A DNA stretch of 64,000 nt. It comes from Gordonia sp. PDNC005 (GTDB taxonomy: Bacteria; Actinomycetota; Actinomycetes; Mycobacteriales; Mycobacteriaceae). The notes under the pieces are model-generated. The model searched no databases, was not told where the DNA came from, and worked only from the letters and a program-made list of their open reading frames with translations. The translations under genes were made by a program, and so were the position numbers. The DNA is taken from the NCBI RefSeq assembly GCF_016919385.1, contig NZ_CP070351.1:2976001-3040000 (forward strand), read 5' to 3'. Shown here piece after piece: positions 31,118 to 48,501 of the stretch (positions are counted from its first letter, which is position 1; each line of letters begins with the position of its first letter).

Positions 31118-31136
31118 GCTGCAGACGCATCAGTTT

Positions 31137-31181: not shown

Positions 31182-31194
31182 TTTGCGTTGTGGG

Positions 31195-32409
31195 TCAGTT
31201 CCAGCGGGCCGCTATGAGAGCGGCGAGCATGACGATTGTGGCGTGCGGGCCGCTGGAGAGCGGGCCTGGCAGGATCGAACCGTCGATCACACGGAGTCCG
31301 AGTACCCCGTCGACGCGACCGTCCGCGTCGACTGCGGAGCCCGCCGGCAGCGTCCCCCACGCGTGCTGAGACATCCCGACTGTCGGGTCCACCCGAACCG
31401 ATCCGGGCTCGACAAGGTCGGCGAACTCCGCCGATCCGAGCATCCGCACGACTGTCTCGACACCGGCGGACAGTCGGTTCGCTGAATCGGCGTCGGGTTC
31501 GCCCAGGTCGACGATGCCGTTCGCCACCGTGCCCTGAGCTCCGGCCATGTCCGCCACTCCGATCGGGACGCCCGTCGGGTCGAGCGAGGTGAACTCGGCG
31601 AAGTCGTTGGAGTACGGCCTGATCTCCAGACCTTCGGGAGTGTGAATCACCGTCTGCAGCAGCGCGGTCGACGTCAGGACTCGTCGGGGTGTGAACCGGA
31701 CGATGCGCTCAGCGTGTTCGTGCAACGGCATAGGTCCGATGATCGGCGCCATCAACGACGACGTCCCGATCGTCCCTGCGCACATCACGACCTCGCCGGC
31801 ACTGATCGTCTCTCCCGCATCGGTCAGGACGCCAACCGTCTTTCCTGCTCGGACGAGCAGACGAGCGGCCGAGGTGTCCGCGCGGACGGCGAGGTTCGGG
31901 CGGCCGGTCACGAGCAGGTTCGCCGTCGTCCATCGGTTCCCGTTGATGCTGTTGGTCCGCACTCGGTTGACCCCGATCCGAGGCCACACGCTGTCCTGTT
32001 GGGGACCCGCCCACGCTTCGATCGCCCGTGGAACCTCGCCCAACTCCGTGTCGCTGAACCGCCGGACTCGCATGATTCGCTCGGTCTCGGCGAACGCGGC
32101 CTCGATCTCCTGGAGCGTCCACGGCCAGTCGGTGTAGTCCGTTCGATGGCCGCGGAGAAAGTAGCCGCCGTTGATCGCCGACGACCCGCCGAGCCCCCGA
32201 CCGCGGACCATCGGCCGCCCACGTCGCTCGACGATCTGCACCGCGCGCACCGGATGGTCGATCGGAAGCCGGTTCATGCTGGACTCGAACACAGCGCCCG
32301 GGCCCGACTCCACCATCAACACCTGGCGAGACGGGTCACGCGAGAGATACTCGGCGACAACACATCCCGCCGATCCCGCACCGACGACCAGTACGTCGGG
32401 CGTTGTCAT
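31195..32409 (-). CDS. mftG: Mycofactocin system GMC-family oxidoreductase MftG
   Basis: A 404-residue FAD-dependent GMC oxidoreductase. Dinucleotide-binding motif VVGAGSAGCVVAE at the N-terminus, GMC signature GRGLGGSSAINGG (~70-82), and C-terminal catalytic-type histidines in SQHAWGTLP and SSGPHATIVM. It is shorter than typical choline/glucose dehydrogenases, as MftG is. Known role of the family: moves electrons from reduced mycofactocin toward the respiratory chain. Its start overlaps the end of mftF by 4 bases; last gene of the mftEFG operon. Confidence 0.92.
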   Translation of the reverse strand: MTTPDVLVVGAGSAGCVVAEYLSRDPSRQVLMVESGPGAVFESSMNRLPIDHPVRAVQIVERRGRPMVRGRGLGGSSAINGGYFLRGHRTDYTDWPWTLQEIEAAFAETERIMRVRRFSDTELGEVPRAIEAWAGPQQDSVWPRIGVNRVRTNSINGNRWTTANLLVTGRPNLAVRADTSAARLLVRAGKTVGVLTDAGETISAGEVVMCAGTIGTSSLMAPIIGPMPLHEHAERIVRFTPRRVLTSTALLQTVIHTPEGLEIRPYSNDFAEFTSLDPTGVPIGVADMAGAQGTVANGIVDLGEPDADSANRLSAGVETVVRMLGSAEFADLVEPGSVRVDPTVGMSQHAWGTLPAGSAVDADGRVDGVLGLRVIDGSILPGPLSSGPHATIVMLAALIAARWN

Positions 32410-33833
32410 CGGCGCGAGATCACCGGGCGTAGAGCACCGACGTCACGGCGGGCGATCACACCCTGCCACAGGCCTGCCCCATACGCGAGATCATCGAGGC
32501 GACGGAACACGATGTAGTGCAGTGGGCTCATCACCGGCGTCTCCGGGTCGACCAGCTGATTCCGCACCCACATCGCCAGCGCCTCGACCACTGCGACCCA
32601 TCCGAACCACACTCGGAACCGGCGACTCACCGCACACGCGACCAACGACACCGGCCAGTAATGACGCAGCACCGCCGCCGCCACCTGGAGAAGTCCGAAA
32701 CCGAACGCCCGACCCGTGTTGACCGCCGCGATCCTCTCCCGGTGCGGGACGTGTGCCACCGCGCGCGTCGTGTTGCGGCAGACGATCGCCGCGATCACCA
32801 CCGCGACCAACATGCCGATGCGAGTTCGAGTCGCGAGTGCGACGACGCCCGCCGCGATCGGCGCAGTCATCACGAGGGGCGCCGCGAGTTCTCCGTGTCG
32901 GAGTGCGAGCTCGGCGGCACCGGTTCCGTAGAAACGTCGCCGATTGAGCATGCCCGACAACGACTCTCGGTGGTCGTGTGCCACTTCGGCGATGGGGTCG
33001 TAGCGGATGCGCCATCCAGCCTGGTGCGTCCGCCAGCAGAGGTCGACGTCTTCGGCGACACGAAGCGACTCGTCGAACGACAGGAAACCCGCACGGCGCA
33101 CCACCATCGCCGCGCTCGGCACGTATGCGAGCGGCGTCCCAGGAGCGACCAGCGCTTCCCGCGGTCCCATGTCGAGCGAGGAGAACCGGTTGGCGTAGTC
33201 CGCGACGGACGACGTCGAGTCGCTCCCCGCCGCCACCGTCTGCAGTCCCACGATTCGGGGCGCGACTATTGCGACGGTGGGATCGGCGAAGTGCCCGAGC
33301 AGCATCGTCAGCCAGTCTCCGGTCGGCACGGTGTCGGAGTCGAGGAAGGCGACGAACTCAGTCGATGCCGCTGCGACTCCGGCGTTGCGGGCAGCCGCCG
33401 GACCACGATTCTCGTCGAATCGGATCAGTCCCACCTGTCCGCCGACCTCGATCGGGATGTCGGAACCGTCGTCGACGACGATGACCGACGCCTCCTGGTC
33501 TGACAATGCGTTGAGCAGTCTGTCGACTCCGGACTGGTTGCCGCGCACCGGAATCACCACGGTCACGTCGCCGACGCACGGTCCGGACATCGGACGCGGA
33601 TGAGCGATGCCCGCATCGAGGAGACGGCGGGCCAGCACCTGAGTCCCGACATCAGCGACCGCGATCCGACCGTCCACGGACGTCATTCCGAGCGCTGGAT
33701 CGGACAGTTTCATCACCCTCATCGGTGACCCGCCGACGAGGTAGCGGAGGTTTCCGCGCCGTGCGCACCGCGGATCGATCTGCACCTGGAAGCCGCTCGG
33801 CAGCACGGTGCTCGTCGGACCTGACGTCTTCAC
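32406..33833 (-). CDS. mftF: Mycofactocin glycosyltransferase MftF
   Basis: A 475-residue family-2 glycosyltransferase with a membrane C-terminal region. Catalytic part: VIVVDDGSD (~125), NRGPAAARN, and DxD-type FLDSDTVPTGDW (~170). Hydrophobic segments follow near 300-345 and 385-430. In mycobacteria MftF adds beta-1,4-glucose chains to the cofactor. I use the GTG at 33833, which overlaps the mftE stop (GTGA); the alternative start at 33863 lies inside mftE. The length matches the family (~470). Confidence 0.92.
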   Translation of the reverse strand: MKTSGPTSTVLPSGFQVQIDPRCARRGNLRYLVGGSPMRVMKLSDPALGMTSVDGRIAVADVGTQVLARRLLDAGIAHPRPMSGPCVGDVTVVIPVRGNQSGVDRLLNALSDQEASVIVVDDGSDIPIEVGGQVGLIRFDENRGPAAARNAGVAAASTEFVAFLDSDTVPTGDWLTMLLGHFADPTVAIVAPRIVGLQTVAAGSDSTSSVADYANRFSSLDMGPREALVAPGTPLAYVPSAAMVVRRAGFLSFDESLRVAEDVDLCWRTHQAGWRIRYDPIAEVAHDHRESLSGMLNRRRFYGTGAAELALRHGELAAPLVMTAPIAAGVVALATRTRIGMLVAVVIAAIVCRNTTRAVAHVPHRERIAAVNTGRAFGFGLLQVAAAVLRHYWPVSLVACAVSRRFRVWFGWVAVVEALAMWVRNQLVDPETPVMSPLHYIVFRRLDDLAYGAGLWQGVIARRDVGALRPVISRR

Positions 33834-34543
33834 ATCAGCCGCCCGTCGTCGCCGACAATCCACGACACCACCGACGCGGCGAGTGCACGCGACCGATCGT
33901 CGAGCATGTGCTCGCCCCGGGCGGCGTCGGCTCGCGTGGGGTCGCCGAGCACTCCCGTCGGGGCCACCGCGGCCACTCCGCCCTCACGCAGCGCCGTCAT
34001 CAACGTGGCGATCGGCTCGGTGTTTCCGGGCGCGAGTTCGGACGTCCGGACCGCATCCGGGTCCACTGCCAGGAGGACAGAGGTCTCGGTGTCCCCGGCG
34101 TGTGCGTCGGCGCCGCGGAACGCGCACGGCCACCATGCGACGTCTCGCCCCTCGTATCGCAGGAGACGCACCGCGGCGGCCAACGCCGTCGCGTTGCCGC
34201 CGTGTCCGTTGACGAAGACGATTCGCTTGGCCCATCGACACGCACTGCGGCCGTACTCGACGATCAGTCGTTCCATCACGTCCCCGCCGATCGAGACGGT
34301 GCCGGGGAATCCCTCGTGCTCGCCGGAGGCGCCGTACGCGATCGCGGGGGCGATCATCGCGTCGAGGACGACTTCGGTCAGTGTCAGCGCGCGGATCGCG
34401 ACCTCACTGGCGATTCGCCCGTCCGTGTCCATCGGGAGATGGGGTCCATGCTGTTCGACGGCCCCGACGGGGACGAGGATCGTCAGTTCCCTGTCGATCA
34501 CGTCAGTCCACGTCGACGACCCCAATTCACGCACTGGCGTCAT
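33830..34543 (-). CDS. mftE: Mycofactocin precursor peptidase MftE (creatininase family)
   Basis: A 237-residue metal-dependent peptidase of the creatininase family. It has the metal ligand region VEQHGPHLPMDTD (~30-42), FVNGHGGN, and DTETS. MftE cleaves the MftC-modified peptide to release the C-terminal Val-Tyr-derived product. I start at the ATG at 34543 (MTPVRELGSS) because TAGGGT lies 7 bases before it (leaderless pattern); the ORF extends to 34609. It begins the mftEFG operon and is separated from mftA-D by about 8.6 kb, unlike the compact mycobacterial cluster. Confidence 0.92.
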   Translation of the reverse strand: MTPVRELGSSTWTDVIDRELTILVPVGAVEQHGPHLPMDTDGRIASEVAIRALTLTEVVLDAMIAPAIAYGASGEHEGFPGTVSIGGDVMERLIVEYGRSACRWAKRIVFVNGHGGNATALAAAVRLLRYEGRDVAWWPCAFRGADAHAGDTETSVLLAVDPDAVRTSELAPGNTEPIATLMTALREGGVAAVAPTGVLGDPTRADAARGEHMLDDRSRALAASVVSWIVGDDGRLM

Positions 34544-34698
34544 TCGGACAACCCTACCGATCACAACGCGTCTCGTCAGTACCCGAGTCGGACGAGATCG
34601 GTGACCCACGCCCGGACAAGTCCACTTATGCGGCGTGTGTAATGCTGAGTGAAACCAGGTGATTCACAGCACTCACCCGACTTCATCGGAGGCACTGC
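34544..34698. promoter_or_regulatory. Divergent promoter region mftE / racemase
   Basis: A 155-base region. Toward mftE there is a TAGGGT -10 element 7 bases from the ATG. Toward the racemase there is a GGAGG ribosome site. In the middle, about 34634-34651, GCTGAGTGAA and TTCACAGC form an imperfect inverted repeat with a GTGAA/TTCAC core, a candidate operator of unknown owner. Confidence 0.45.
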
Positions 34699-35814
34699 AT
34701 GACCCCTACGACGAACCGCGCGCCCTCGGGCCGTTCCGGCCCGCTCGCGAACATTCGTGTCATCGAATTCGCAGGCATCGGCCCCGGCCCCCATGCCGCC
34801 ATGCTCCTCGCCGACCTCGGCGCCGACGTCGTCCGCGTCCAGCGCCCCGGTGAACTGCCCGACCCCAACCGCAACGCCGACGCACTGCTCCGCGGACGCC
34901 GCGTCGTCGAAGCGAATCTGAAGAACCCTGCCGACCGAGAGACGATCCTCAACCTCGTCGCTAAGGCCGATGTTGTGATCGAGGGCTTCCGCCCGGGCGT
35001 CATGGAACGCCTCGGGTTCGGCCCCGACGACCTCGCGCAGGTCAACAGCAGTCTCGTCTACGGCCGCATGACCGGGTGGGGACAGGAGGGCCCGCGAGCG
35101 AATCTCGCAGGCCACGACATGAACTACATCTCGCTCACCGGCATGCTCCACGCGATCGGCCGCCCGGACGAGAAGCCCACTCCCCCGCTCAACCTCGTCG
35201 GCGACTTCGGCGGCGGTTCGATGTTCCTGGTCATGGGCATCCTCGCAGCACTGGTCGAGCGCAGCGTCTCGGGCAAGGGTGAGGTGATCGACGCCGCGAT
35301 GTGCGACGGCGCATCGGTGCTCGGCCAGATGATGTGGGCCTTCCGCGGCACCGGACTGTGGCAGGACCGCCGCGGTGTGAACCTCCTCGACACCGGCGCC
35401 CCGTTCTACGAGGTGTACGAGACCTCCGACGGCAAGTGGATGGCCGTCGGCGCCATCGAACCGCAGTTCTACGCCGAGCTCATCAAGGGCCTCGGGCTCG
35501 ACCCGGAAGCCATTCCGCACCAGATGGACTTCTCGAAGTGGCCCGAGCAGCGTGCGATCTTCGAGGAGACGTTCAAGACCAAGACCCGCGACGAATGGGC
35601 TGCGATCTTCGAGGGCACCGACGCGTGCACGTCGCCGATCCTGGACTTCCTCGAAGCCCCGAACGACCCGCATCTCGCAGCCCGCGGCTCTCTCGTGGAG
35701 ATCGACGGCGTGATGCAGGCTCAGGTAGCTCCCCGATTCGCGCGCTCGGTGACCGAGACGCCCACCGGCCCGCACCGCACCGCGACCGACCCCGCCACCC
35801 TCTGGCAGGACTGA
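34699..35814 (+). CDS. mcr: Alpha-methylacyl-CoA racemase (CoA-transferase family III)
   Basis: A 371-residue protein of the CaiB/BaiF fold. The N-terminus IRVIEFAGIGPGPHAAMLLADLGADVV matches alpha-methylacyl-CoA racemases closely. The catalytic His (LAGHDMNYISLTG) and Asp (NLVGDFGGG) pair of the racemase is present. Family role: interconverts 2R/2S-methylacyl-CoA epimers so that methyl-branched chains and sterol side chains can enter beta-oxidation. The ATG has GGAGG 8 bases upstream. It is monocistronic, with a strong terminator behind it. I infer sterol or branched-lipid use from its neighbours. Confidence 0.87.
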   Translation: MTPTTNRAPSGRSGPLANIRVIEFAGIGPGPHAAMLLADLGADVVRVQRPGELPDPNRNADALLRGRRVVEANLKNPADRETILNLVAKADVVIEGFRPGVMERLGFGPDDLAQVNSSLVYGRMTGWGQEGPRANLAGHDMNYISLTGMLHAIGRPDEKPTPPLNLVGDFGGGSMFLVMGILAALVERSVSGKGEVIDAAMCDGASVLGQMMWAFRGTGLWQDRRGVNLLDTGAPFYEVYETSDGKWMAVGAIEPQFYAELIKGLGLDPEAIPHQMDFSKWPEQRAIFEETFKTKTRDEWAAIFEGTDACTSPILDFLEAPNDPHLAARGSLVEIDGVMQAQVAPRFARSVTETPTGPHRTATDPATLWQD

Positions 35815-35819
35815 AATTC

Positions 35820-35865
35820 ACAACGACTGCGGCCCACCGGAAATCCGGTGGGCCGCAGTCGTTGT
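35820..35865. terminator. Bidirectional terminator, 21-bp perfect stem
   Basis: ACAACGACTGCGGCCCACCGG pairs perfectly with 35845-35865 around an AAAT loop. It lies between the convergent racemase and SDR genes, 6 bases after one stop and 14 bases from the other. Confidence 0.92.
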
Positions 35866-35878
35866 TTCGAGCCAGTTG

Positions 35879-36679
35879 TCAGACCTTCGTCGCGCCCATG
35901 TCGATCTGGAACTCGGCGCCGGTGACCGCGGCCGCCGTCGACAGGTACAGGACTGCGTCGGTGAGGTCGTCGACGCTGGCGACCGGGTAGTGGTCCATCA
36001 TCGACGGGAAGTGGCGGCCCCACTTCTCGAACGCGGCGAACGCCGACGGATCTTCGAGGCCCATCGGGGTGTGGACCGCGTAAGGGTGGACCGTGTTGAC
36101 CCGGATCCTCTGGTCGCCGAGTTCCTTGGCTGCGGTCTGTGCGAGGCCGCGGAGTCCGAACTTCGACGCCGAGTACGACGCCTGCGCCGGCATCGCCTTG
36201 ATGCCCGCACACGACGAGACGATGACGATGCTTCCGCCGTTGCCTGCCGCGATCATCGCGGGAATCGACGCCTTGAGCGTCTTCCATGTGCCGACGAGGT
36301 TGACGTCGACGACGTCGGTGAACTGATCTTCGGTCATCTCCCAGGTGAGGCCCCAGGTGAGGATGCCCGCGTTGGCGACGACATGGTCGAGGCGACCGAA
36401 TTGCTCAACACCGTCGGCTACGAGCTGCTGCTGGAATTCGAGGTCGCGAGTGTCGCCCTGGCGAGCGAGGATCTTGCCACCGGTCTCTTCGACGAGGCGG
36501 ATCGTCTCGGCGAAATCGTCGGCCGTCGCAGGAGGGTACGTGGTGTGGTCGGCGACGCGGTCGGCGATGTCCATGCCGATGATCGATGCGCCTTCCTTCG
36601 CAAAGCGAATGGCGTGGTTGCGCCCCTGACCACGAGCGATACCCGTGATGTACACGACCTGACCGTCGAGATTCCCCAT
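35879..36679 (-). CDS. Mycofactocin-coupled SDR family oxidoreductase
   Basis: A 266-residue short-chain dehydrogenase. The cofactor motif is TGIARGQG, catalytic residues are Ser in VSSCAGIKA and YSASK. It carries the ~15-20-residue insertion typical of the mycofactocin-dependent SDR subfamily (ADHTTYPPATADDFAETI, ~44-61), as in carveol-dehydrogenase-like enzymes and Rv0687. These hold NAD tightly and pass electrons to mycofactocin. A KstR-type box sits 42-55 bases before the ATG, so expression is probably sterol-linked. Substrate unknown; likely a secondary alcohol. Confidence 0.9.
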   Translation of the reverse strand: MGNLDGQVVYITGIARGQGRNHAIRFAKEGASIIGMDIADRVADHTTYPPATADDFAETIRLVEETGGKILARQGDTRDLEFQQQLVADGVEQFGRLDHVVANAGILTWGLTWEMTEDQFTDVVDVNLVGTWKTLKASIPAMIAAGNGGSIVIVSSCAGIKAMPAQASYSASKFGLRGLAQTAAKELGDQRIRVNTVHPYAVHTPMGLEDPSAFAAFEKWGRHFPSMMDHYPVASVDDLTDAVLYLSTAAAVTGAEFQIDMGATKV

Positions 36680-36720
36680 TTGCCGTCACACCTTCCAGTT
36701 ACACGTACGAATGGCCGAAC

Positions 36721-36734
36721 TGTAACACGTTCTA
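36721..36734. promoter_or_regulatory. KstR-type operator before the mycofactocin SDR
   Basis: TGTAACACGTTCTA fits TNNAACNNGTTNNA, the pattern of the TetR-family sterol repressor KstR. It lies 42-55 bases upstream of the SDR start and between it and the PucR stop. The repressor gene itself is not in the window. Confidence 0.7.
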
Positions 36735-36791
36735 CTTGTCCTGATCGGGGTTCACCGGGCACCGGCACTTCGACAGCGAACGATCACGCGT

Positions 36792-37922
36792 TCAGCCGTC
36801 GACTGTCGACCCGACCGTCGCCAGAGCCGCCCAGATCTCGGCCTGAGCGCTCGGCGCGCGCCACCCGCCACCCAACAGGGCATCGACCCGGGACAGCCTG
36901 TTGCGCACCGTGTTCGGATGGACTGAAAGCCGCCGTCCGGCCCCGTCGATCGACCAGCCGCTCCCTTGCCATTGTCGGACCGTGTCAACCAAGTCGTGGC
37001 GGTCGTCAGCACGCAGCGGGTCGAGCCAACGGCGGCGCAACCGCTCTCCGAGGAGCGGGTCTTCGAACATCGGCACAAGCAAGCCGAGATCATCGAGCGA
37101 ATGAACTCCGGGTCCACTCAGCTTCACGGCCACCCGGCAAGCGCGCTCGGCATCGGAGAGGGCGTCGGCGAGGTCGGATAACGTTCCGGGCCGAGACGAG
37201 CCGATGACCAGTGCGCCGACCGGTCGGGGCCTGCTGTTGACGAGACCGACCAGCACGTCCTGTTCACCGACCCACACGCCCGCCCCGGAATGACTGAAGC
37301 GAAGCGTTGCGGCGTCGACAACAAATCCACCCCCCGCACTGCGCGCCACCACGGCGAACCACCGCGCGCTCAGGTCGACCCCCGCACGGTCGCCGAGCGC
37401 GCGGATCAAACCTGGGTCGCGACGTTCGCGCAAGGCCGTCAGCAGCTCCGCTGCGGCCTGGTCTGCATCCGCGGCACGACGAGCAGCCTTCCCCAGCCCC
37501 TCCGCCGCCCAGACTGCGATCTGTTCCGCCCAGGCACGCGCCCGAACCATCGCCTCGAGCCGGGTCTCCGCATCCACACCCGCCTGAGCAGCTCGTTCCA
37601 TGACTGACGCCTCAACCACACGCGCACCCAGCAGAACGGCGGCAGTCAGATCCTCCGTCGCGATTCCCGCCGCGGCACCCTGCACTCCTGTGCCATACGC
37701 GGCATCCCGATCCGCCTCCGTCGGGACCCCGAAGGAATCACCGAGAATACTGCGCTCAAGAATGCGGTTCATTCCGATCCAGACCTCGCTCGACGGGCTC
37801 GCCCCGTACGACACCAGCCTGGTGGTGACAGTCGCCGCGACTGCGCGCACAAGATCGTCGCGATCGTTCCAGACCGCTTCAACAAACGGCCGCATCACTG
37901 CCGAGACGTCCATGGCCAACAT
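36792..37922 (-). CDS. PucR/CdaR-family transcriptional regulator
   Basis: A 376-residue protein. The C-terminus holds the PucR-type helix-turn-helix (WSIDGAGRRLSVHPNTVRNRLSRVDALLG). The central part resembles the GGDEF-like sensor region of CdaR proteins, and the N-terminus is a helical domain with many Ala and Arg. Such regulators usually activate nearby catabolic genes in response to a metabolite. I choose the ATG at 37922 (another lies at 37913); the ORF runs on to 38282 but would cross the divergent gene's operator. Divergent from the unknown envelope operon, with about 97 bases between starts, so it may also control it. Confidence 0.85.
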   Translation of the reverse strand: MLAMDVSAVMRPFVEAVWNDRDDLVRAVAATVTTRLVSYGASPSSEVWIGMNRILERSILGDSFGVPTEADRDAAYGTGVQGAAAGIATEDLTAAVLLGARVVEASVMERAAQAGVDAETRLEAMVRARAWAEQIAVWAAEGLGKAARRAADADQAAAELLTALRERRDPGLIRALGDRAGVDLSARWFAVVARSAGGGFVVDAATLRFSHSGAGVWVGEQDVLVGLVNSRPRPVGALVIGSSRPGTLSDLADALSDAERACRVAVKLSGPGVHSLDDLGLLVPMFEDPLLGERLRRRWLDPLRADDRHDLVDTVRQWQGSGWSIDGAGRRLSVHPNTVRNRLSRVDALLGGGWRAPSAQAEIWAALATVGSTVDG

Positions 37923-37992
37923 CCAAGCAGATCTCGTGTGAACAGCCACAAGAATGTCAGCAAATCCATGTGAAATTCTCCAAGATGAGGCC

Positions 37993-38008
37993 CTAGAACG
38001 CGTTCTAG
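37993..38008. promoter_or_regulatory. KstR-type operator, perfect 16-bp palindrome
   Basis: CTAGAACGCGTTCTAG is fully palindromic and contains TNNAACNNGTTNNA. It overlaps a possible -10 element (TAGCGT, 38006-38011) of the leaderless gene starting at 38020. A bound repressor would therefore block transcription directly. It is also 71 bases in front of the divergent PucR gene. Confidence 0.72.
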
Positions 38009-38019
38009 CGTTTTCTACT

Positions 38020-39552
38020 GTGAAAACTCTTGTTGCTTTCGGGGCCCGTTCCACGGTAGCCGCCGCGGGTGTCGGGCTGATCCTCCTCTCGGCAGCCTCT
38101 CCGGCACCTGCAGTCGCCCGCCCCGGCGAACCCAGCACGACGTGTGTGCCCGTCGGCACCGCACAGCTTCCGCCCGGCCTACCGCCGAACACCTCGACGG
38201 CGGGCTTGCAGAAGCTGCGGCCGACCAATCGACCTGGCCTCCCTCGCACCGTGGAGCTCCGCACGCCGAAGCAGAGCTTCAATCAGCGGTGGGAGTTCAC
38301 ATTGGCGGGAGGCGATCTGTTGACTCGACAACGAGGCGGGAGCACGTGGCGGGTGCTCGGACTGCCCGGATGCCTGCGCGATCGACTGACCACGATCTCT
38401 GTCGACGACGACGAGATGCTCGCCGCCGATCGTCATGGCCGGGTGTTCACCCTCGACAACCTCCTGCGCGAGCCCGCGACCTGGAATTGGACGCGAGCGT
38501 GGGGAGCGCCGCTGTGGCAAGGAGACGGCACCCGGCTCCCAGCAACCACCGGCGACCGATGGTCCTGGTCGGTCTCGTCGCCATGGACGACTAAGACCTT
38601 CTCGGACGATGCGGGCACCAATCACCCACTCGGCCAGGGGAAGGTCTCGCACATCATCGCACTCGTCGGCGACGGAAGCAGGATCGTCACACAAGACCCA
38701 TGGCTGGCAGACGACTACAGCTACGAGATCGGTTCCCCGCACAACGGCCGATTCCAGTCGGAGGCGCTGTCGGCGTCAGGATCGACGACGTTCATCATCA
38801 ACAAATACGGCGACATGTACACGCGCCTCTACGACTTCGACAATTCCGGCTCTGACATCGTGTTCTACCGCTACTCGTGGGCCGACCAGCGAGGTAAGCC
38901 CGATGCCCCCGATCTCGGCTCGCAGCGTTTGAACCCGACGTATGCAGCCGTCCAACTGCCGTCGCCGGGTTGGCGTCAGCAGCCGAAGATTCCGGGCGAG
39001 ATCACCTCGTCGATCTCGATCCACCAGACCGGCAGCGGTTCGCAGTCACGTGAACTCCGTGTCGAGGGCCGGAACTACGGCTTTACCGGTTTCTGGCACA
39101 AGCCGATCTACGGCAGCTCGTGGTCATTCACCCAGAGCGGTCGCCCGCTGCGCAAGCCACTTCTGGACAACTCTCCCGAGGATCGCAGTCTGCAGACTCT
39201 TGCCGCTCCATCGACCAAGTCGTTCACCGCGGCACTGCCCGTCCGTGGCAACGCCTCGGGGTACAAGCTCGAGGTCGATGAGTTCAACTGGGCCGCCTCC
39301 GCTCGTACCGCCACGGTGACCGCACCGACCGGCACGACCTTCACGGTTGTCCTGCACACGGTCGACGGGCTGCGTCAGCTCCCCATCCCGCAGGGCCTCT
39401 CGTCCACCCCGCGCGACATGTACGGTGCGATCGAACTCGCACCGGGTCAGAGCTCAACGGCGGCGAAGACGTTCAAGAAGCGCTGGCTCGGCGGAGCCGC
39501 GGTCTCACCGATCCAGATGACAATCACCAACCGATCGATGGTCATCCGATGA
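38020..39552 (+). CDS. Exported protein of unknown function
   Basis: A 510-residue protein I do not recognise. From the GTG at 38020 (VKTLVAFGARSTVAAAG) it has a clear signal peptide: basic start, hydrophobic core to about residue 30, then an Ala-x-Ala site (PAPAVARP). An ATG at 37954 would place non-signal residues in front and would include the operator, so I reject it. The mature part is rich in Trp, Ser, Thr and Gly, with repeated Trp/Tyr-containing strands (WRVLGLPG, WSWSVSSPW, WSFTQSG), suggesting an all-beta, perhaps propeller or lectin-like, fold. Only two cysteines follow the signal. Its end overlaps the next gene by 4 bases. A KstR-type palindrome covers its promoter. Confidence 0.8.
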   Translation: MKTLVAFGARSTVAAAGVGLILLSAASPAPAVARPGEPSTTCVPVGTAQLPPGLPPNTSTAGLQKLRPTNRPGLPRTVELRTPKQSFNQRWEFTLAGGDLLTRQRGGSTWRVLGLPGCLRDRLTTISVDDDEMLAADRHGRVFTLDNLLREPATWNWTRAWGAPLWQGDGTRLPATTGDRWSWSVSSPWTTKTFSDDAGTNHPLGQGKVSHIIALVGDGSRIVTQDPWLADDYSYEIGSPHNGRFQSEALSASGSTTFIINKYGDMYTRLYDFDNSGSDIVFYRYSWADQRGKPDAPDLGSQRLNPTYAAVQLPSPGWRQQPKIPGEITSSISIHQTGSGSQSRELRVEGRNYGFTGFWHKPIYGSSWSFTQSGRPLRKPLLDNSPEDRSLQTLAAPSTKSFTAALPVRGNASGYKLEVDEFNWAASARTATVTAPTGTTFTVVLHTVDGLRQLPIPQGLSSTPRDMYGAIELAPGQSSTAAKTFKKRWLGGAAVSPIQMTITNRSMVIR

Positions 39553-40178
39553 CGCAGAATGCCCTCGACGCGCTCGAGACACTGCGGAGTGCAGCGAACT
39601 TCCAGTGGTCGATCGTCCCGATCATGGTGATCGTGATCTGGCTGTACGCCAACGAAGTGGAGAAGCGGAACTGGGGCGTCGTGTTCGGCGGTCTCGCGCT
39701 GCTCGCCGCCGACACGTTCAACGAACTGTGGAACTCGGCGTTCTTCCATATCACCGACCGCGCACCCGTGTGGGGTGCGCCCGGACACTCGTCGTTCCAG
39801 ATCCTCATCGGATGGAACATCGAGATCGTCCTCATGTTCGCGACGCTCGGTCTTGCTGCAGCGAAGATGCTGCCGAAGGACCAGTCGATGCGCATCGCGG
39901 GTGTGCCGAATCGGTGGGTGCTCATCGCGGTCAATGCAGCGCTCGCCGTCGGCATCGAGGTGGTGCTCAACAGGATGGGTGTACTGACCTGGGACTGGTC
40001 ATGGTGGTCGCCGCAGTTCCCGTTCATCGTGTGGCTCGTCGGCTACGTACCGTTCTTCGCCGCCTGCTTCTGGGTTCACGACATGTCGAACAACCGCAAG
40101 CGCGCCATCGCCGTCGGTTCGATGCTCGGAGCCAACGCCGCGTTCGCAACCGTCCTCGGCGCGGTCGGCTGGCTCTGA
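39549..40178 (+). CDS. Multi-pass membrane protein of unknown function
   Basis: A 209-residue protein with about six hydrophobic segments: ~20-38, 45-60, 83-105, 125-142, 158-175 and 187-207. A conserved-looking loop FNELWNSAFFHITDRAPVWGAPGHSSFQ, with charged residues and His, lies between helices two and three. I cannot assign a family. It starts inside the stop of the exported protein (ATGA), so the two are translated together and probably act together at the envelope. Confidence 0.82.
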   Translation: MTQNALDALETLRSAANFQWSIVPIMVIVIWLYANEVEKRNWGVVFGGLALLAADTFNELWNSAFFHITDRAPVWGAPGHSSFQILIGWNIEIVLMFATLGLAAAKMLPKDQSMRIAGVPNRWVLIAVNAALAVGIEVVLNRMGVLTWDWSWWSPQFPFIVWLVGYVPFFAACFWVHDMSNNRKRAIAVGSMLGANAAFATVLGAVGWL

Positions 40179-40250
40179 TCCCAGAATGACGACAAGTGAC
40201 CGTCCCGGACGGATTGCGTCACTAACAGTCGGCCCGAACGTCCGTCGTGA

Positions 40251-41357
40251 TCACGCTACGGCAACGGCGAGGACAAGCAGGAGGAAACAAAGCGCGGCAC
40301 ATCCGACCATGACGACGCCCCTCGTCGGTAGCGGCTGCCCGGGCGGCGGAGGCGACAACACCGGCTCGGGCGACCCGTTCACGCCGGCCGCTGTCGCTAA
40401 TTCAGGATCGATGCGAGTCTTCCTGAGTACGTCGGCGCTGTTCAGACGGTGCAGGCGCGCCGCGACGACGCCTTGCCGGGAAGAGTCTGCCTGCCGGAGC
40501 CCACGGGTGAATGTCAATGCGGCAGCGAGATCAGCAGCGAATGCGCGACAGTCGGGGTAGCGGTCGACCGGATTCTTGCTCATCACCTTCCGGAGCACCT
40601 GATCGACGACGGGGGCCAATTCCCGGTTGTGCATCGCCACTGAGGGAACTGGATGAGAAAGATGCCCGGAGACCACGTCCGGCAGATCGTCGAAGTTGTA
40701 TGGCGGCCTACCTGTCAGCAGGTGGTAGGCGGTGCAGCCGAGAGCGTACTGGTCGGTCGCGGGGACCAGAGGCCCGTCCAGGAGTCGCTCAGGCGCGGTG
40801 TAGTCGACCGATCCGACGAGGGAGTCGACAGTGGTGATCCGCGTCGCGTCGTCGATGGGTCGAGCGATTCCGAGATCGGTGAGGTGGACCGAGGTGACCG
40901 TGCCTTCCCCACTGCCGAGGAGGATGTTGGCGGGCTTCACATCTCGGTGGATCACGCCCTCACTGTGAGCATAGTCGAGTGCGCTCGCGACGATCTGGAC
41001 GATCTGAGCGACTGCGTTCGGGCGGAGCGGGCCGAACTCACGCACCCGGCGGAGCGCGTCGTCACCCTCGACGTATCGCAGCGAAATCCACAGCCGCCCT
41101 CGGTCCTCCCCTCGATCGTGGACGCCGACGATCGCCGGATGATCCAACCGCGCCGCCAGATCTGCTTCGCGTTCGAATCTCCTCCGGAACTCCCGGTTGT
41201 CGACGTGTTCGGGACTCAGGACCTTGAGCGCGACGACCCTGGGGAGACGTGGGTGCTGCGCCTGGTAGACCTCGCCCATACCTCCCCTCCCGACGATCCG
41301 CACGATCCTATGCCCGGCGAACAGATCGTCGGGTGCCAGCTCCGTGGTCGATGTCAT
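40251..41357 (-). CDS. Eukaryotic-type Ser/Thr protein kinase
   Basis: A 368-residue kinase. Gly-rich loop VGRGGMGEVY (~22-31), VALKVL lysine, catalytic HRDVKPANIL (~137-146), DLG in place of the usual DFG (LTDLGIAR), and YTAPERL. The kinase domain spans ~15-275. A proline-rich stretch (SPPPPGQPLPT) and one transmembrane helix at the very C-terminus follow, with almost nothing outside, so the kinase lacks a real sensor domain. GGAAGGG lies 8 bases before the ATG. It is 15 bases after the frameshifted kinase gene; both sit between the two mft blocks. Confidence 0.92.
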   Translation of the reverse strand: MTSTTELAPDDLFAGHRIVRIVGRGGMGEVYQAQHPRLPRVVALKVLSPEHVDNREFRRRFEREADLAARLDHPAIVGVHDRGEDRGRLWISLRYVEGDDALRRVREFGPLRPNAVAQIVQIVASALDYAHSEGVIHRDVKPANILLGSGEGTVTSVHLTDLGIARPIDDATRITTVDSLVGSVDYTAPERLLDGPLVPATDQYALGCTAYHLLTGRPPYNFDDLPDVVSGHLSHPVPSVAMHNRELAPVVDQVLRKVMSKNPVDRYPDCRAFAADLAAALTFTRGLRQADSSRQGVVAARLHRLNSADVLRKTRIDPELATAAGVNGSPEPVLSPPPPGQPLPTRGVVMVGCAALCFLLLVLAVAVA

Positions 41358-41372
41358 GACTTCGGGCCCTTC

Positions 41373-42795
41373 CTACTTGATGTAATCGCCGACGCAGAGT
41401 GTGTCGACGGAATGGCTCGGCAATCCGCTTCGTTGCTCGGCCTGTCCGATCGCAGCCTGCTGTGCCGATGGTCGGTCGAAGCTCGTAGCGGCGACATAGC
41501 CGGGGGCAACCGGATCAGGGGCGGACATGGGTGCCGCAATCGCTGCACAGCCGGACGTGAACGATACGAGCACCCACGACCGAGGGTCATATCCCCAGCG
41601 ACTCTGCGCCGAGGCGGAGAGTGATGCCGCGGTTCGATAGTCGCGAAACGCATAGCTTCGCCCCTGCGGGTCGACTGCGAGGCCCCAGGTCGAGCCCACG
41701 TCTTCCGCCGACCCCGAATCCGGTGATGTCATTTCACGGCGGAAGGAGTCCCCGGTTATCGTCTGCTCCTGCACGCTCCGAGTGGGATCGTGGGCGACCA
41801 GGTACCCGACTCCGGCTGCGGCCAGGACCGCGGACACTGCGATTCCAGCGGCAGCTCGCCGTCGAATGTAAGTGCGCCGAATAGGACGACGTTGCCGCTG
41901 ATTAGGAGAGTGATGACGCTGGTCGTCCTGCCCTTTGACCTCGACTCCGAAGTCTCCCGATCTTCTCTGGGACTGGGGACGCAACGCCCGGGCCAACGCC
42001 TGCGCGAACTCGCCACACGACGGGTAACGGTCACCGGGATTCTTGGCCAGTGCTCGAGCGAACACTGGATCCGCGGCGAGATATCGAGGATAGGTCTCGG
42101 ATATTCGAGGAATCGGCGCATTCGTGTGTGCTGCGATAAGGGCCGCCAGTGTCGCATGAGGATAGGGGAGCTCGCCTGTGAGGAGTTCGAACATTGTGCA
42201 TGCGAAGGAGTACTGGTCAACTGCCGAATGGGATGCGTCACCGGCTATCGATTCGGGCGATGCATATCCGAGGGTTCCCACGAACGAACTGATTTCCGTC
42301 AATCCGGTAGCGGATATGACTTTCGCGACGCCGAAGTCGAGTATCGTCGCCTTCTCGACGCGGCCGTCGCGCGTCATCGCGATATGAATGTTCGCCGGTT
42401 TCACATCGCGATGAATCACTCCCTGCGCGTGCGCGTAGTCCAGTGCAGCCCCCACGTCGAGCGCGACCGTGCACAGGTCCGCGATCGACAATCGTTCAGC
42501 CTTGTCGAGGTCTGCCCCCCGGCAGGAACTGCATGAGAAACCAACTGAGGCCGTCATCGATCCCCGCCTCGTACACCGTCGCGATGCTCGGGTGATCGAG
42601 TGCAGCCATCACGGCGGCTTCCGCAGCGAATCGGTCCGCCGACAAGGCGCCGGCGACGAAAGGTGCGACTTTCAGCGCTTCCAAACGATTGAGTTGTGCA
42701 TTTCGAACCAGGTAGACCTCCCCCATCCCACCTGAGCCCAAGAGCTTGATGATCTCTCGGCCAGCGAAGCTGGCCCCGATGCGCACACTGAGCAT
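41373..42795 (-). pseudogene. Ser/Thr protein kinase gene interrupted by a frameshift
   Basis: The kinase N-lobe (from ATG 42795: LGSGGMGEVYLV, EALKVA, FLMQFLPGG) stops at 42496. The C-lobe (YAHAQGVIHRDVKPANI, LDFGVAKV, GYASPESI, DQYSFACTMFELLTGELPYP) continues in another frame to 41373. The join is at a run of six C on the plus strand (42515-42520); one base fewer there would restore a single ~474-residue protein. The full product would have a kinase domain, a basic linker, one transmembrane helix (~AGIAVSAVLAAAGVGYLV) and an outside domain of ~130 residues. Either a recent null allele, phase variation in the homopolymer, or a sequencing error. Confidence 0.8.
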
Positions 42796-43137
42796 GCCTT
42801 CCCAACGCCTCCTGTCGCAGCCCTGTTTGCCGCTGCTGCAAGCGTAGGAGGGACCGGAAGCACGCCTTCGGATTACCAGTCGAACGCGATCAAATGTCAT
42901 TACCGAGACATAAGGGATATGCGTAACGACGCGTTGTCAGATCAAATATCGACTGATCGGAGGATACACATAGTTGGTCCAGACGATAGGGCTGCGAAAA
43001 CAGCGTCGAACACCTAGACGTTCGATGTGCGTAGCGGCTGGTTCGACCGCCGGCATTCGTCAACGATCGCCGTATAGAACAGCGAGCGGAGTCGAGAACT
43101 GGTCTCGACTCCGCTCGCTGGGATTCAGCTCAGAGAC
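42796..43137. other. AT-richer intergenic region between kinase and mftD
   Basis: About 340 bases with no supported gene. The part at 42890-42990 is visibly lower in GC than the rest of the window (many A/T runs such as ATCAAATATCGACTGATC). The kinase promoter should lie here on the minus strand, and the mftD terminator closes the right end. Confidence 0.6.
43081..43119 (-). terminator. Terminator after mftD
   Basis: A perfect 17-bp stem (AGCGAGCGGAGTCGAGA and its complement) with a 5-base loop lies 19 bases past the mftD stop codon. It ends the mftABCD transcript before the kinase genes. Confidence 0.9.
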
Positions 43138-44355
43138 TCAGGCGCCGAACGTGCGCTCGAACCCTTCAGGAATGATCAGATCGTCACGGGAGAGATCCGC
43201 GACGTCCGACTTGCCGAGGCCCATGAGCGACGAGTCGACGCCCATGCGGAGCAGGTCGAGGACGTTCTCGACACCGGTCTGGCCGTTGGCGGCGAGCCCC
43301 CAGAGGTAGGCGCGCCCGATCATGACGGCCTTCGCACCGAACGCGAGTGCCTTCGTGACGTCGCTGCCGCGGCGAATGCCGCCGTCGAGCAGCACGTCGA
43401 GGTCGCCTCCCACCTCGTCGGCGATCGGTCCGAGGACGCGGATCGTCGCGGGCGTTCCGTCGAGATTGTTGCCGCCGTGGTTCGAGACCGAGATCGCGGT
43501 CGCGCCGATGTCGCGGGCACGCTTCGCGTCGTCGATCCGAGTGATGCCCTTGACCATGAACTCACCGCCCCACTGCTCGCGCAGCCACTCCAGGTCCTCC
43601 CACGTGGGAGGGGGCGTGTTCATCCACGTGCCGTAGACGTCGAAGAACGTCGGACCCGGCTCGCCTTTGTGGGCGATGTTCGGCGCCGACAGGTCGGGAA
43701 TGATCAGCTTTCCGTCGCGGAACCAGCTCATCGCGTAGGCGGGCTTGGTGACCATCTCGGGTGCCAGCTTGGCGACCGCGCGCAGATCGACTTGCTCGGG
43801 GATCTCCGGGCTGCCCCAGTCGCGGCCGACGTTGAACACCCAGTCAGTGGTGACGATCAAACCCTTGCAGCCGGCTTCCCGGGCACGGTTCGCGCGAGCG
43901 AGGATGTCCTCCTTGCTGCCCAGCCAATAGATCTGGAAGAACACTTTGTCGTTGACTGCGGTGACTTCCTCGACCGGCTTGGAAGCGAAGCTCGACAGAC
44001 CCATCGCGGTGCCGCGGTTGGCTGCGGCTCGTGCCACGGCCACTTCCCCGTCCGGATTGACGGCCTGCACCCCGGTCGGACTGATCATGACGGGGAACGG
44101 CAGTTCCTGACCCATCACCGTGGTCGTCAGATTGCGCTCCGGCGTCGCACCGACGACGTGCGGGGCGAAGCCGAGTTCGTTGAACGCCTCGACGTTGTCG
44201 TTGACCGTGATGCCTGCCTGAGTGCCCGCCACGAGCGACGAGTAGACGGTCTTGGGCAGACGCTTCTGCGCTCGACGCTGGGCTTCACCGACGGTCTCGA
44301 ACCAAGGGTTCCGACGCCAGGGGTTCTTCTCCATCAGTTCGGAGAACTTCGACAT
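43138..44355 (-). CDS. mftD: Mycofactocin biosynthesis FMN-dependent deaminase MftD
   Basis: A 405-residue enzyme of the FMN-dependent alpha-hydroxy-acid dehydrogenase fold. FMN and substrate residues are visible in SPTGVQAVNPDGEVAVARAA, the catalytic-type region AISVSNHGGNNLDG (His), and LLDGGIRRGSDV. In the pathway MftD oxidatively deaminates the released AHDP to premycofactocin, which carries the redox-active keto-amide. The ATG has AGGAACC 7 bases upstream. It follows mftC by 26 bases. Confidence 0.95.
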   Translation of the reverse strand: MSKFSELMEKNPWRRNPWFETVGEAQRRAQKRLPKTVYSSLVAGTQAGITVNDNVEAFNELGFAPHVVGATPERNLTTTVMGQELPFPVMISPTGVQAVNPDGEVAVARAAANRGTAMGLSSFASKPVEEVTAVNDKVFFQIYWLGSKEDILARANRAREAGCKGLIVTTDWVFNVGRDWGSPEIPEQVDLRAVAKLAPEMVTKPAYAMSWFRDGKLIIPDLSAPNIAHKGEPGPTFFDVYGTWMNTPPPTWEDLEWLREQWGGEFMVKGITRIDDAKRARDIGATAISVSNHGGNNLDGTPATIRVLGPIADEVGGDLDVLLDGGIRRGSDVTKALAFGAKAVMIGRAYLWGLAANGQTGVENVLDLLRMGVDSSLMGLGKSDVADLSRDDLIIPEGFERTFGA

Positions 44356-44381
44356 TGTGTGGTTCCTATTCGTGAGCGCGG

Positions 44382-45650
44382 TCAGCAGGACGAACAGCCC
44401 GTGGCTGATGTCGGAGCGAAACCGGCGAGGGGGTTCTCATCGCAGTCGCGCGACGGAGGTCGGGTCATCAGCGTCAGCGGTACACCGCGCGAGTGATCCT
44501 TGTTGGCGGTCGGCTTCGACCGCTCACCTGCGAGCAGCTCTTCGCCATAGCCCTGCACACACTCCGGGTCGGGGCCGTCGAGCGGGAGCCCGGTGAAGAA
44601 CTTGGCCGCCATGCAACCACCTCGGCACGCGTCGAAATGCTGACACTTCGTGCAGGCGCCGGCGTTCTGCGGCTCACGGAGCTCAGTGAAGAGGTCACTG
44701 CGCTGCCAGATCTCCTGGAAGCCGCCGTCGGTGGTGATGTTGCCCGCTAGGAAGTTCTCGTGGATCGCGAACGGGCATGCGTACACGTCGCCGACCGGGT
44801 CGATGAGGCACACGACGCGTCCGGCGCCGCACAGGTTGAGTCCGGGCAGACCACTCCCGCCGGAACCGGCGAACGCCGAGAGGTGGAAGAACGAGTCGCC
44901 GGTGAGGACGCGGTCTCCGTGGTCGACGAGCCAGTCGTACAGTTCGCGCTGCTGCTCGGGCAGCGGATGCAGATCGTCCCACACGTCGGCGCCACGGCCT
45001 GACGGACGCAGGCGCGTGATGCGCAGAGTCGCGTCATAGGTGTCGGCGAGGGCCTTGAACTCGTCGAGCTGCGCCACGTTCTGGCGGGTCATGACAACGC
45101 TGATCTTGGCGTCTTTGAAACCTGCGTTCTTCAGGTTCTCGAGCGCCCGAACGGCCATGTCGAACGATCCCTTGCCGCGGACCGCGTCGTTGACCTCGGC
45201 GGTGGCGCCGTCGAGCGAGATCTGGACGTCCACGTAGTCGGACGCGGCGAGGCGCTGCGCGACCTTCTCGTCGATCCGGAGTCCGTTGGTGGAGAACTTC
45301 ACGCCCACCTGGTGGCTGGTGGCGTAATCGACCAGCTCCCAGAAGTCAGGGCGCACCGTCGGCTCGCCGCCGCCGATGTTCACGTAGAACACCTGCATAC
45401 GCTGCAATTCGTCGATGATCGCCTTGCACTGTTCGGTGTTCAGCTCACGCGGGTCGCGCTTGCCCGAACTCGACAGGCAATGAACACACGACAGATTGCA
45501 CGCGTAGGTGAGCTCCCAGGTCAGACAGATCGGGGCGTCGAGACCCTTCTCGAACTGATCGACGAGACGTCCCACCTTCGGCGTAGTGGGCGCGAGATCC
45601 AGTGGCGGCGTCGTGGTCGGAAGGGTCGAGGGCCGTTCGATTGTGGTCAC
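44382..45650 (-). CDS. mftC: Mycofactocin radical SAM maturase MftC
   Basis: A 422-residue radical SAM/SPASM enzyme. The SAM cluster motif is CNLSCVHC (Cys 51, 55, 58). C-terminal SPASM cysteines lie in LNLCGAGRVVCLID, VYACPFA and CTKCQHFDACRGGC, enough for two extra clusters. MftC decarboxylates the C-terminal tyrosine of MftA and then forms the lactam ring with valine. GTG start at 45650 overlaps the mftB stop (GTGA). The tail ends GCSSC. Confidence 0.97.
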   Translation of the reverse strand: MTTIERPSTLPTTTPPLDLAPTTPKVGRLVDQFEKGLDAPICLTWELTYACNLSCVHCLSSSGKRDPRELNTEQCKAIIDELQRMQVFYVNIGGGEPTVRPDFWELVDYATSHQVGVKFSTNGLRIDEKVAQRLAASDYVDVQISLDGATAEVNDAVRGKGSFDMAVRALENLKNAGFKDAKISVVMTRQNVAQLDEFKALADTYDATLRITRLRPSGRGADVWDDLHPLPEQQRELYDWLVDHGDRVLTGDSFFHLSAFAGSGGSGLPGLNLCGAGRVVCLIDPVGDVYACPFAIHENFLAGNITTDGGFQEIWQRSDLFTELREPQNAGACTKCQHFDACRGGCMAAKFFTGLPLDGPDPECVQGYGEELLAGERSKPTANKDHSRGVPLTLMTRPPSRDCDENPLAGFAPTSATGCSSC

Positions 45651-45988
45651 GGGTTCACTCCTGAGGTGTCGCCTTCGATGATCATTCCCGACTCGGCGAG
45701 CGCGGAGAGTGCCTGAAGGTAGAGCGGACGGTCGGCGTCGGTGATGCCTGCGGACTGCAGCGCCGCATCGGCGCTCGGATGCTCGGCGAGGCTTCGGACC
45801 AGATCGACGACGGTCAGGTTCTTGAGGAACGACAGCTTGCGCGTTCCGAAGTGATACAGCAGGGCGCCGAACGGTTCGGGTCGCAGTGCGACCTTGGGGT
45901 TGAGCGTCCAGGCTGCGGCGGTGTCGAAGGCGGGACCGCTCCCGGCGGCAGCGGTGCCGCCGGGAACAGTGGTCGTTGCGGTTGTCAT
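45647..45988 (-). CDS. mftB: Mycofactocin precursor-binding chaperone MftB
   Basis: A 113-residue PqqD-like RRE protein. Core LNPKVALRPEPFGALLYHFGTRKLSFLKNLTVVDLVRSL is typical. It binds the MftA leader and presents it to MftC. The ATG shares a base with the mftA stop (TGATG), so it is coupled to it. The first ~25 residues are Thr/Ala/Gly-rich and appear flexible. Confidence 0.95.
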   Translation of the reverse strand: MTTATTTVPGGTAAAGSGPAFDTAAAWTLNPKVALRPEPFGALLYHFGTRKLSFLKNLTVVDLVRSLAEHPSADAALQSAGITDADRPLYLQALSALAESGMIIEGDTSGVNP

Positions 45989-46080
45989 CAGTAGACGCCG
46001 CACATCCCGTCGATGGACACTTCTTCCACCAGCGACTCGGCGACGAGCTCGTCGTGAGTCTGGGCTGCCTGTTCGGCCAT
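45988..46080 (-). CDS. mftA: Mycofactocin precursor peptide MftA
   Basis: A 30-residue peptide, too short for most ORF searches. It starts at the ATG at 46080 with an excellent ribosome site (AGGAGG, 9 bases upstream). It begins MAEQAAQTHDELV and ends IDGMCGVY, the invariant mycofactocin core whose last two residues (Val-Tyr) become the cofactor. The acidic leader (EEVSIDG) is the MftB-binding region. It heads the mftABCD operon. Confidence 0.96.
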   Translation of the reverse strand: MAEQAAQTHDELVAESLVEEVSIDGMCGVY

Positions 46081-46220
46081 GTGAACCAACCTCCTGAAGT
46101 AGTTCTGTGTGGTTCGCTTCACACCGTAATGGCACCCAGTGCAGAATTGCTAGTGATTGCCGAGAATTTCTTCGGCGTACCATCGTGACCAGCGACGACA
46201 CCGCCGAAGAAAGGCCAAGA
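46081..46220. promoter_or_regulatory. Divergent mftA / mftR control region
   Basis: A 140-base region between divergent starts, the expected binding place of MftR. A weak -10-like TACGGT on the minus strand lies about 45 bases before mftA. A small palindrome CCGAGAATTTCTTCGG (about 46159-46174) lies closer to mftR. I cannot say which element MftR binds. No KstR-type box is present here. Confidence 0.5.
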
Positions 46221-46856
46221 ATGACGACAGGACGTCCAGGTCCACTCGGCGGGCGCCCTGCGGCGACCACCCGTGGACGCCTGAGCGCCGTCGCGATCGA
46301 ACTGTTCACAACTCGCGGATTCGACGAGACCAGCGTCGACGACATCGCGTCGGCCGCCGGCATCGCACGCCGCACGCTGTTCCGCTACTACCCGTCGAAG
46401 AACTCCCTGGCCTGGGGAGAGTTCGACGAACACCTCCAAGGCCTACGCGCGCTCCTCGCGGCGACCCCCGCCGACACCCCGCTCGGCGAGAGCCTCATCA
46501 ACGCCCTCGTTCAGTTCAACGAAGTGCCGCACGACCTACTCGAGCAGCACCGCAGCCGGATGGCACTGCTGCTCGGCGTCCCAGCTCTCCAGGCGCACTC
46601 GATGATCATGTACGCCGACTGGCGACAGGTGATCGCCGAACACTGCGCGGCCCGCCTGGGCGTGGACGCCGACGGACACGTCCCCCAGACCATCGCCTGG
46701 ATGACCCTCGGGACAGCGCTCGCCGCCTACGATCAGTGGTTGATCGACCCGGCGTCCGACCTCACCGAACTCCTTCAGATGGGCGGTCGCACACTCGTCG
46801 ACGGAGTCGGTTCACTGACAACGTCGACCAGATCAGCCAAGCCACTCCATTCGTAG
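46221..46856 (+). CDS. mftR: Mycofactocin system TetR-family regulator MftR
   Basis: A 211-residue TetR regulator. The DNA-binding helices are AIELFTTRGFDETSVDDIASAAGIARRTLFRYYPSKN (~20-57), followed by a helical ligand domain. MftR of mycobacteria responds to long-chain acyl-CoA and controls mftA-D. I start at the ATG at 46221 with GAAGAAAGG upstream; the frame extends back to 46107 without a good ribosome site. Divergent from mftA, the standard arrangement. Confidence 0.92.
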   Translation: MTTGRPGPLGGRPAATTRGRLSAVAIELFTTRGFDETSVDDIASAAGIARRTLFRYYPSKNSLAWGEFDEHLQGLRALLAATPADTPLGESLINALVQFNEVPHDLLEQHRSRMALLLGVPALQAHSMIMYADWRQVIAEHCAARLGVDADGHVPQTIAWMTLGTALAAYDQWLIDPASDLTELLQMGGRTLVDGVGSLTTSTRSAKPLHS

Positions 46857-46940
46857 GATTCGCCTCGGGCGATGGATCAGATCACTCCCACAGGCCGGAA
46901 CAACGGCTATGACACACTTTCAACCGCTGATATTCTTTTG

Positions 46941-46954
46941 TAGAACACGTTCTA
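46941..46954. promoter_or_regulatory. KstR-type operator before kshB
   Basis: TAGAACACGTTCTA, the classic form of the KstR site, 43-56 bases upstream of the kshB ATG. In mycobacteria the equivalent gene (Rv3571) belongs to the KstR regulon, which supports both the operator and the gene call. Confidence 0.82.
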
Positions 46955-46996
46955 GTTCCGACTGCCGGTCGGACGTCGCCGCACAGAGAGCGCACC

Positions 46997-48055: not shown

Positions 48056-48081
48056 GGATGCACGGGGCATAGACTCGGGCC

Positions 48082-48480: not shown

Positions 48481-48501
48481 CCTGCGCATCCCGCGGCTCT
48501 C

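Follow-up and report, generated by a model that had tools for sequence, protein, structure and literature searches.

Organization of the locus

The window (the whole stretch of DNA analysed, 64,000 nucleotides of a Gordonia genome) contains two overlapping genes of the same orientation, designated p1 and p2, and a divergent gene for a PucR-type regulator. They are flanked by genes of the mycofactocin (mft) locus, with mftG, mftF, mftE and the gene of a mycofactocin-coupled SDR on the left, and mftD and mftC on the right. The features considered below are as follows (strand is given where assigned).

35879..36679, minus strand: mycofactocin-coupled SDR, a neighbour outside the block
36721..36734: KstR core motif TnnAACnnGTTnnA ahead of the gene for the mycofactocin-coupled SDR; all 30 Gordonia loci inspected, that of this genome among them, have it
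36739..40240: 3.5-kb block PucR-p1-p2, replaced by 81 bp in the related genome G606
36792..37922, minus strand: divergent PucR-type regulator (HTH_30), third member of the module, with an ortholog beside p1 and p2 in genome G045
37993..38008: predicted KstR-type operator CTAGAACGCGTTCTAG (from the palindrome, the motif count in the genome and the motif of PMC1995591)
38006..38011, plus strand: probable -10 sequence TAGCGT overlapping the operator, 8 nt before the GTG at 38020 (placed by eye and by homologous promoters)
38020..39552, plus strand: p1, predicted exported protein of 510 aa, a beta-propeller followed by a C-terminal beta-sandwich; TGA at 39550-39552
39549..40178, plus strand: p2, predicted six-helix membrane protein of 209 aa (PF27271), overlapping p1 by 4 bp
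46941..46954: second exact KstR box within the window, ahead of the gene for a ferredoxin-type reductase (46997-48055)

A predicted KstR operator upstream of p1

The sequence at 37993-38008, CTAGAACGCGTTCTAG, is its own reverse complement and forms a perfect 16-bp palindrome with the published KstR motif. In the available part of Kendall et al. (2007; PMC1995591) this motif is a 14-bp palindrome, TAGAAC(N2)GTTCTA, with the core TnnAACnnGTTnnA, located upstream of the -10 sequence, with which it overlaps in part. The 14-bp core of the box, TAGAACNNGTTCTA, was found at 13 sites in the 4,260,791-bp single-contig Gordonia genome, versus none for the reversed control, and according to our own gene calls all 13 exact sites are intergenic. 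With up to three mismatches of the 16-mer, the reversed control was as frequent as the pattern (69 versus 57 strand matches), and therefore only near-exact sites were regarded as informative. A kstR gene is present (NF033703 equivalog, 331.5 bits against a cut-off of 280) and is itself preceded by an exact box. One-mismatch boxes precede HsaA, and a two-mismatch box precedes 3-oxosteroid 1-dehydrogenase. Of ten proteins scanned with HMMs, five stayed without a match at the strict threshold used, and most genes next to the remaining exact sites received no HMM assignment.

The GTG start codon of p1 (38020) lies 11 nt past the end of the 16-mer. The original prediction placed the palindrome on the probable -10 sequence of a leaderless gene. 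By eye the overlap looks probable; a sigma-70 consensus scan of 36600-40400 found no promoter. In the p1 paralog of the same genome (L135) and in two Gordonia homologs (L144, L151), GTG is located 6 nt after a TAnnnT-like -10 sequence, which makes a leaderless p1 transcript starting at 38020 plausible. The position of the box relative to the probable -10, placed by eye, would agree with the arrangement described in the part of PMC1995591 available to us. Given an exact motif in the right place and an encoded KstR, the sterol-type control that had been predicted is well supported by the sequence, and KstR-type control is the natural reading of the p1-p2 promoter. We consider it very likely that KstR represses the operon.

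Several further KstR motifs were observed in the window. The one at 36721-36734 is about 41 bp upstream of the SDR gene, and in a survey of 30 loci (from the 58 Gordonia genomes with the SDR) it reads TAGAACGTGTTACA in 29 and TAGAACATGTTACA in one. We take Rv0687 to be an SDR. A near-identical site is given for Rv0687 in the part of Kendall et al. (2007; PMC1995591) that was accessible, and such a motif is thus already in print for mycobacteria. The exact box at 46941-46954 precedes the ferredoxin-type reductase gene, which adjoins mftR and whose region can also be aligned in the six further Gordonia mft loci retrieved. Core motifs were also noted at 50521-50534, before a FAD oxidoreductase-like gene, and at 59981-59994, between hydrolase-like and transporter-like genes (names assigned by eye). 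The ferredoxin-type reductase is a candidate for a KshB role.

Predicted structures and families of p1 and p2

The p1 product has a hydrophobic N-terminus and 16 Trp residues, and its predicted structure is mostly beta (pLDDT 90.8), in keeping with the large exported, Trp-rich, beta-looking protein described from the sequence. The model comprises a beta-propeller, probably six-bladed, at about residues 68-379, followed by a C-terminal beta-sandwich; Cys42 and Cys118 are nearly invariant. We consider it highly likely that p1 is an exported propeller.

The p2 model (pLDDT 86.5, pTM 0.86) contains, besides a short helix at the N-terminus, six long ones, as expected for the six-helix membrane protein whose start codon (ATG at 39549) overlaps the p1 stop codon by four bases in the sequence ATGA. 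An envelope location of both products is supported by the predicted signal of p1 and the helices of p2. Homologs of p2 among the matches listed are about 210 aa long and 47-78% identical; 132 were retrieved from the single sequence, and 4579 of 8000 scored candidates from an alignment. Among the matches listed, p2 and 120 homologs carry the precomputed label PF27271, an accession for which a full-text literature search found no paper. Residues invariant in 49 of 49 p2 sequences include R13, D55, N58, E59, N62, H67, N90, E92, K106, R122, E137 and D178. The presence of conserved charged residues in a membrane protein suggests chemistry or transport rather than scaffolding.

Known membrane protein families were compared with p2. 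Some UniProt-derived names of p2 homologs use the term lycopene cyclase domain; this domain (CrtYcd, TIGR03462) had no match in the genome studied here (G000), and profile comparison of its 13 members with p2 gave a probability of 0.1. The Pyr4-type membrane terpene cyclase family (PF25129) had no match in G000 or in G107, both of which carry p2, and scored a probability of 0.2 in a profile comparison based on five bacterial members only; the literature search found no paper on a bacterial membrane-bound terpene cyclase of the Pyr4 kind. EBP sterol isomerase (PF05241) gave no match in G000 and none in a Pfam scan of p2 up to an E value of 1. Haemolysin III-like proteins (PF03006) matched two of 49 p2 members, at best with 20.7 bits (cut-off 26.2) and over residues 131-206 only. 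A Foldseek search with the p2 model returned nothing at E values up to 0.001. Overall, the profile and structure comparisons revealed no named family with a function that accounts for p1 or p2.

p1, p2 and the PucR gene as a module

In named genomes, a p2 relative is encoded in at least 563 of at least 590 pattern stretches. According to record titles, the best 80 of these at least 563 loci belong to Actinobacteria, Firmicutes, Deltaproteobacteria, Chloroflexota, Bacteroidales and one Archaeoglobi bin, with many anaerobes that have no visible link to sterols. Among the same best 80, p1 follows p2 in 18 of 33 actinobacterial loci and is beside p2 in none of 47 non-actinobacterial ones. Since none of the 47 non-actinobacterial loci has p1 and p2 occurs in many anaerobes without a visible sterol link, a sterol-specific role of the whole p2 family is unlikely.

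A more distant second home of the three genes was found in G045, which represents another family of the same class. Here a P450 gene, p2, the PucR gene and p1 are clustered (L252, 8328-13079), and the products are 44% (p2), 48% (PucR) and 43% (p1) identical to those of the window; SDR, PaaI-like thioesterase and PaaX-like regulator genes also lie in the vicinity of p2. The gene order is p1->p2 in the window and p2<-PucR->p1 in G045, and three orders with the same partners were seen overall, which argues that p1 and p2 form a working unit. Among 296 sampled genomes (with at most six PucR and five p1 candidates scored per genome), p2 was present in four, p1 (E up to 1e-20) in five, and the PucR ortholog (E up to 1e-40) in two, namely this genome and G045, in both of which it is located beside p1 and p2. 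The original suggestion that the divergent PucR provides a second input was strengthened by this linkage. No PucR match was obtained in the best 80 of the at least 563 p2 loci, and the regulator therefore belongs to the module in some lineages only. Taken together, p1-p2 looks like a real unit, PucR, p1 and p2 look like a small portable module, and p1 and p2 probably act together.

Apart from p1, 71 operon-like neighbours of p2 (including, in L022, a p2 fragment called in error) were diverse, with no common partner apparent by eye; this analysis covered the 76 of 80 loci in which p2 was called (L020, L026, L034 and L074 were dropped). Some neighbours look lipid-related, by names assigned by eye rather than by HMM. 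A gene for an MMPL-like transporter is directly upstream of p2 in Nocardia (L017, L018, L019) and Actinomadura (L032), at about 5.6-7.9 kb in these loci; FadD- and thiolase-like genes are near p2 in Rhodococcus oryzae; and in two bins of Chloroflexota and one of Bacteroidales (L062, L087, L072) acyl-CoA dehydrogenase-like genes precede p2.

Distribution of the KstR box at p1 and p2 genes

The 539-aa p1 paralog of the same genome is preceded by TAGAACACGTTCGC 14 nt before its GTG, as is its counterpart in G606, and a p1-family gene of G458 has TGAAACATGTTCGC 14 nt before the start. In Gordonia G222 and G514, an exact core site lies 19-20 nt before the ATG of a p1-family gene and is the sole exact-core site in stretches of 19.0 and 19.9 kb, respectively. 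Altogether, 17 Gordonia p1-family starts were examined, a subset of the places found and including the one described here: three have an exact core, three a core with one mismatch, and 11 neither, one of the latter having a one-mismatch site 331 bp away. Outside Gordonia, the 350 bp upstream of 25 p1-family starts (among L093-L121) contain in no case an exact core or a site with two or fewer mismatches.

A box upstream of p2 was found in one of the 33 actinobacterial loci among the best 80 of at least 563, that of N. thailandica. This locus was considered as an independent KstR-controlled p2-p1 operon and was counted as weak, the box being ∼27 bp from a divergent gene for an F420 LLM oxidoreductase versus 142 bp from p2. 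The absence of the box from the 25 non-Gordonia p1 starts and its presence at one of 33 p2 loci indicate that it is not ancestral to the pair but an overlay acquired within Gordonia. No link between KstR and a propeller was visible in the titles or abstract beginnings of the literature search matches.

Position within the mycofactocin locus

In the 59 Gordonia genomes searched, mftD was found in 58 and the SDR gene in 58, versus one for p2, which the remaining 58 lack. Ranked by SDR identity, the closest relative is G606 (SDR 99% and MftD 100% identical), and it has the mft genes without the block: window positions 30550-36738 and 40241-49888 align at 89%, and between them the 3.5 kb are replaced by 81 bp. 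This site contains 17 bp that match the 3' end of p2 exactly and stand in the right order; the longest common string was 17, against at most 15 among 3000 Markov samples. A local alignment of this site with gaps allowed gave 18, which is not above the shuffle maximum of 20. We considered whether the block had recently been inserted into the mft locus, but the 17-bp match favours loss from a block-bearing ancestor, and we tentatively conclude that G606 lost the PucR-p1-p2 block.

When MftC, MftD and MftF were used in tblastn against 82 other p2 loci (with flanks of up to 8-10 kb), neither MftD nor MftF was detected at an E value of 1e-20, and the one weak match was to MftC (28%, in L089). Given the counts of p2 and mftD in Gordonia, the state of G606 and the scarcity of mft genes at other p2 loci, placement in the mft locus is poor evidence for a mycofactocin role of p1-p2, and the argument that had originally been drawn from it is weakened. 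It should be noted that the ethanol used as solvent was identified as the cause of the growth defect that mft mutants of mycobacteria show on cholesterol, according to the accessible part of that report (PMC6529628).

Two other features of the surrounding region were observed. To the right of the block, a gene for a Ser/Thr protein kinase (41373-42900) is split over two reading frames, while G606 has a single 473-aa gene there; the segment 40241-43136, with the kinase genes, gave matches of 23 bp at most when compared with five further Gordonia mft loci. To the left, the mft locus includes, on the opposite strand, a CaiB-type CoA-transferase-like gene (34699-35814, matches below the NCBIfam cut-offs), which can be aligned in each of the six further Gordonia loci retrieved.

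Proposed function and alternative explanations

We propose that p1 and p2 constitute an envelope module that is repressed by KstR, tuned by PucR and used during growth on sterols, a reading to which we assign a probability of roughly 55%, with the molecular function being inferred. In the absence of sterols, a KstR dimer would occupy the promoter-overlapping palindrome and repress p1-p2; during sterol breakdown KstR would be released, and a leaderless mRNA would yield both proteins. p1 would be exported via Sec, its fold being that of a propeller followed by a C-terminal sandwich. p2 would reside in the inner membrane as a six-helix protein whose conserved acidic, Asn and His residues lie within the helices or close to them. 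The two may cooperate at the membrane surface, with p2 serving as an enzyme or carrier in the membrane and p1 as the exported partner of p2. A lipid or sterol-like compound would be the most likely substrate, although for that substrate class we would put the chances a little short of even. The divergent PucR may represent the module's own older control, to which the KstR box would have been added in the Gordonia lineage.

It is also conceivable, though rather unlikely, that p1-p2 is primarily controlled by PucR and serves another substrate (aromatic, terpenoid or a wall component), with the KstR box as a recent and minor side input. In the genomes sampled, the confinement of the PucR ortholog to the two p1-p2 loci would fit such a role, as would the G045 locus, where a 19.9-kb stretch lacks a KstR-like box at up to two mismatches and the neighbours are the P450, SDR, thioesterase and PaaX-like genes listed above; the box is moreover missing from most homologs. 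However, the box in the window is exact and overlaps the probable promoter, and two other Gordonia species also have exact cores at the starts of p1-family genes. The same exactness and overlap, together with 13 sites versus none for the control and their uniformly intergenic location, make it improbable that the palindrome is there by chance or goes unused, with the operon lying outside the sterol response. Points in favour of that view are that in M. smegmatis five of 31 motif instances were thought to be possibly not relevant (PMC1995591, from the part available) and that p2 is confined to one of the 59 Gordonia genomes searched.

Participation of p1 and p2 in mycofactocin chemistry appears very improbable. 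It is suggested by the flanking mft genes and by the KstR-type core motif that the neighbouring mycofactocin-coupled SDR also possesses at all 30 Gordonia loci examined, but mftD is nearly universal in Gordonia where p2 is found once, the closest relative keeps its mft genes without the block, and a single weak MftC match was the yield of the 82 other p2 loci.

The preferred reading, a KstR-repressed and PucR-tuned envelope module, can be extended speculatively to the whole family. PF27271, which is widespread in bacteria and also occurs in an archaeal bin, might comprise small intramembrane enzymes that have so far gone unrecognised as a family. Their substrate would be a lipid or isoprenoid-like, and their site would have the form D-x2-N-E-x2-N...H / N-x-E / E / D; Actinobacteria would have added an exported propeller and in some cases a dedicated PucR sensor, and this Gordonia would have put the pair under KstR control, with its production tied to growth on sterols. 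We regard this extension as unlikely to hold in full. To our knowledge, models of the sterol pathway do not include such an envelope pair. If the proposal is correct, a sterol-degrading actinobacterium makes a dedicated pair of envelope proteins during growth on sterols, and the inducer and the partner would provide the first handle on PF27271, whose thousands of members occur in many phyla and lack a known function.

Comparison with known systems

The propellers set beside p1 were those of AAL-type fucose lectins, the PknD sensor domain and RCC1/UVR8. To the AAL-type lectins, which are six-bladed propellers with conserved sugar sites, the likeness of p1 lies in the fold match alone. The MftR-controlled mycofactocin operon (PMC8728441) shares the genomic neighbourhood and a TetR-type operator, but the MftR palindrome given in the available part of that paper, T-N2-GGCA-N5-TGCC-N2-A, is unlike the p1 box when the two are compared by eye. 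With the KstR regulon the locus shares TAGAAC(N2)GTTCTA in the promoter region, a KstR encoded with its own box, and the same motif before sterol genes; the motif listed for Rv0687 in the accessible part of Kendall et al. (2007) also resembles that at the neighbouring SDR. The locus differs from this regulon in that p1 and p2 match no sterol-pathway enzyme and p2 occurs in no other of the 59 Gordonia genomes. On present evidence, p1-p2 is a probable member of the KstR regulon with two uncharacterised proteins rather than a new kind of system.
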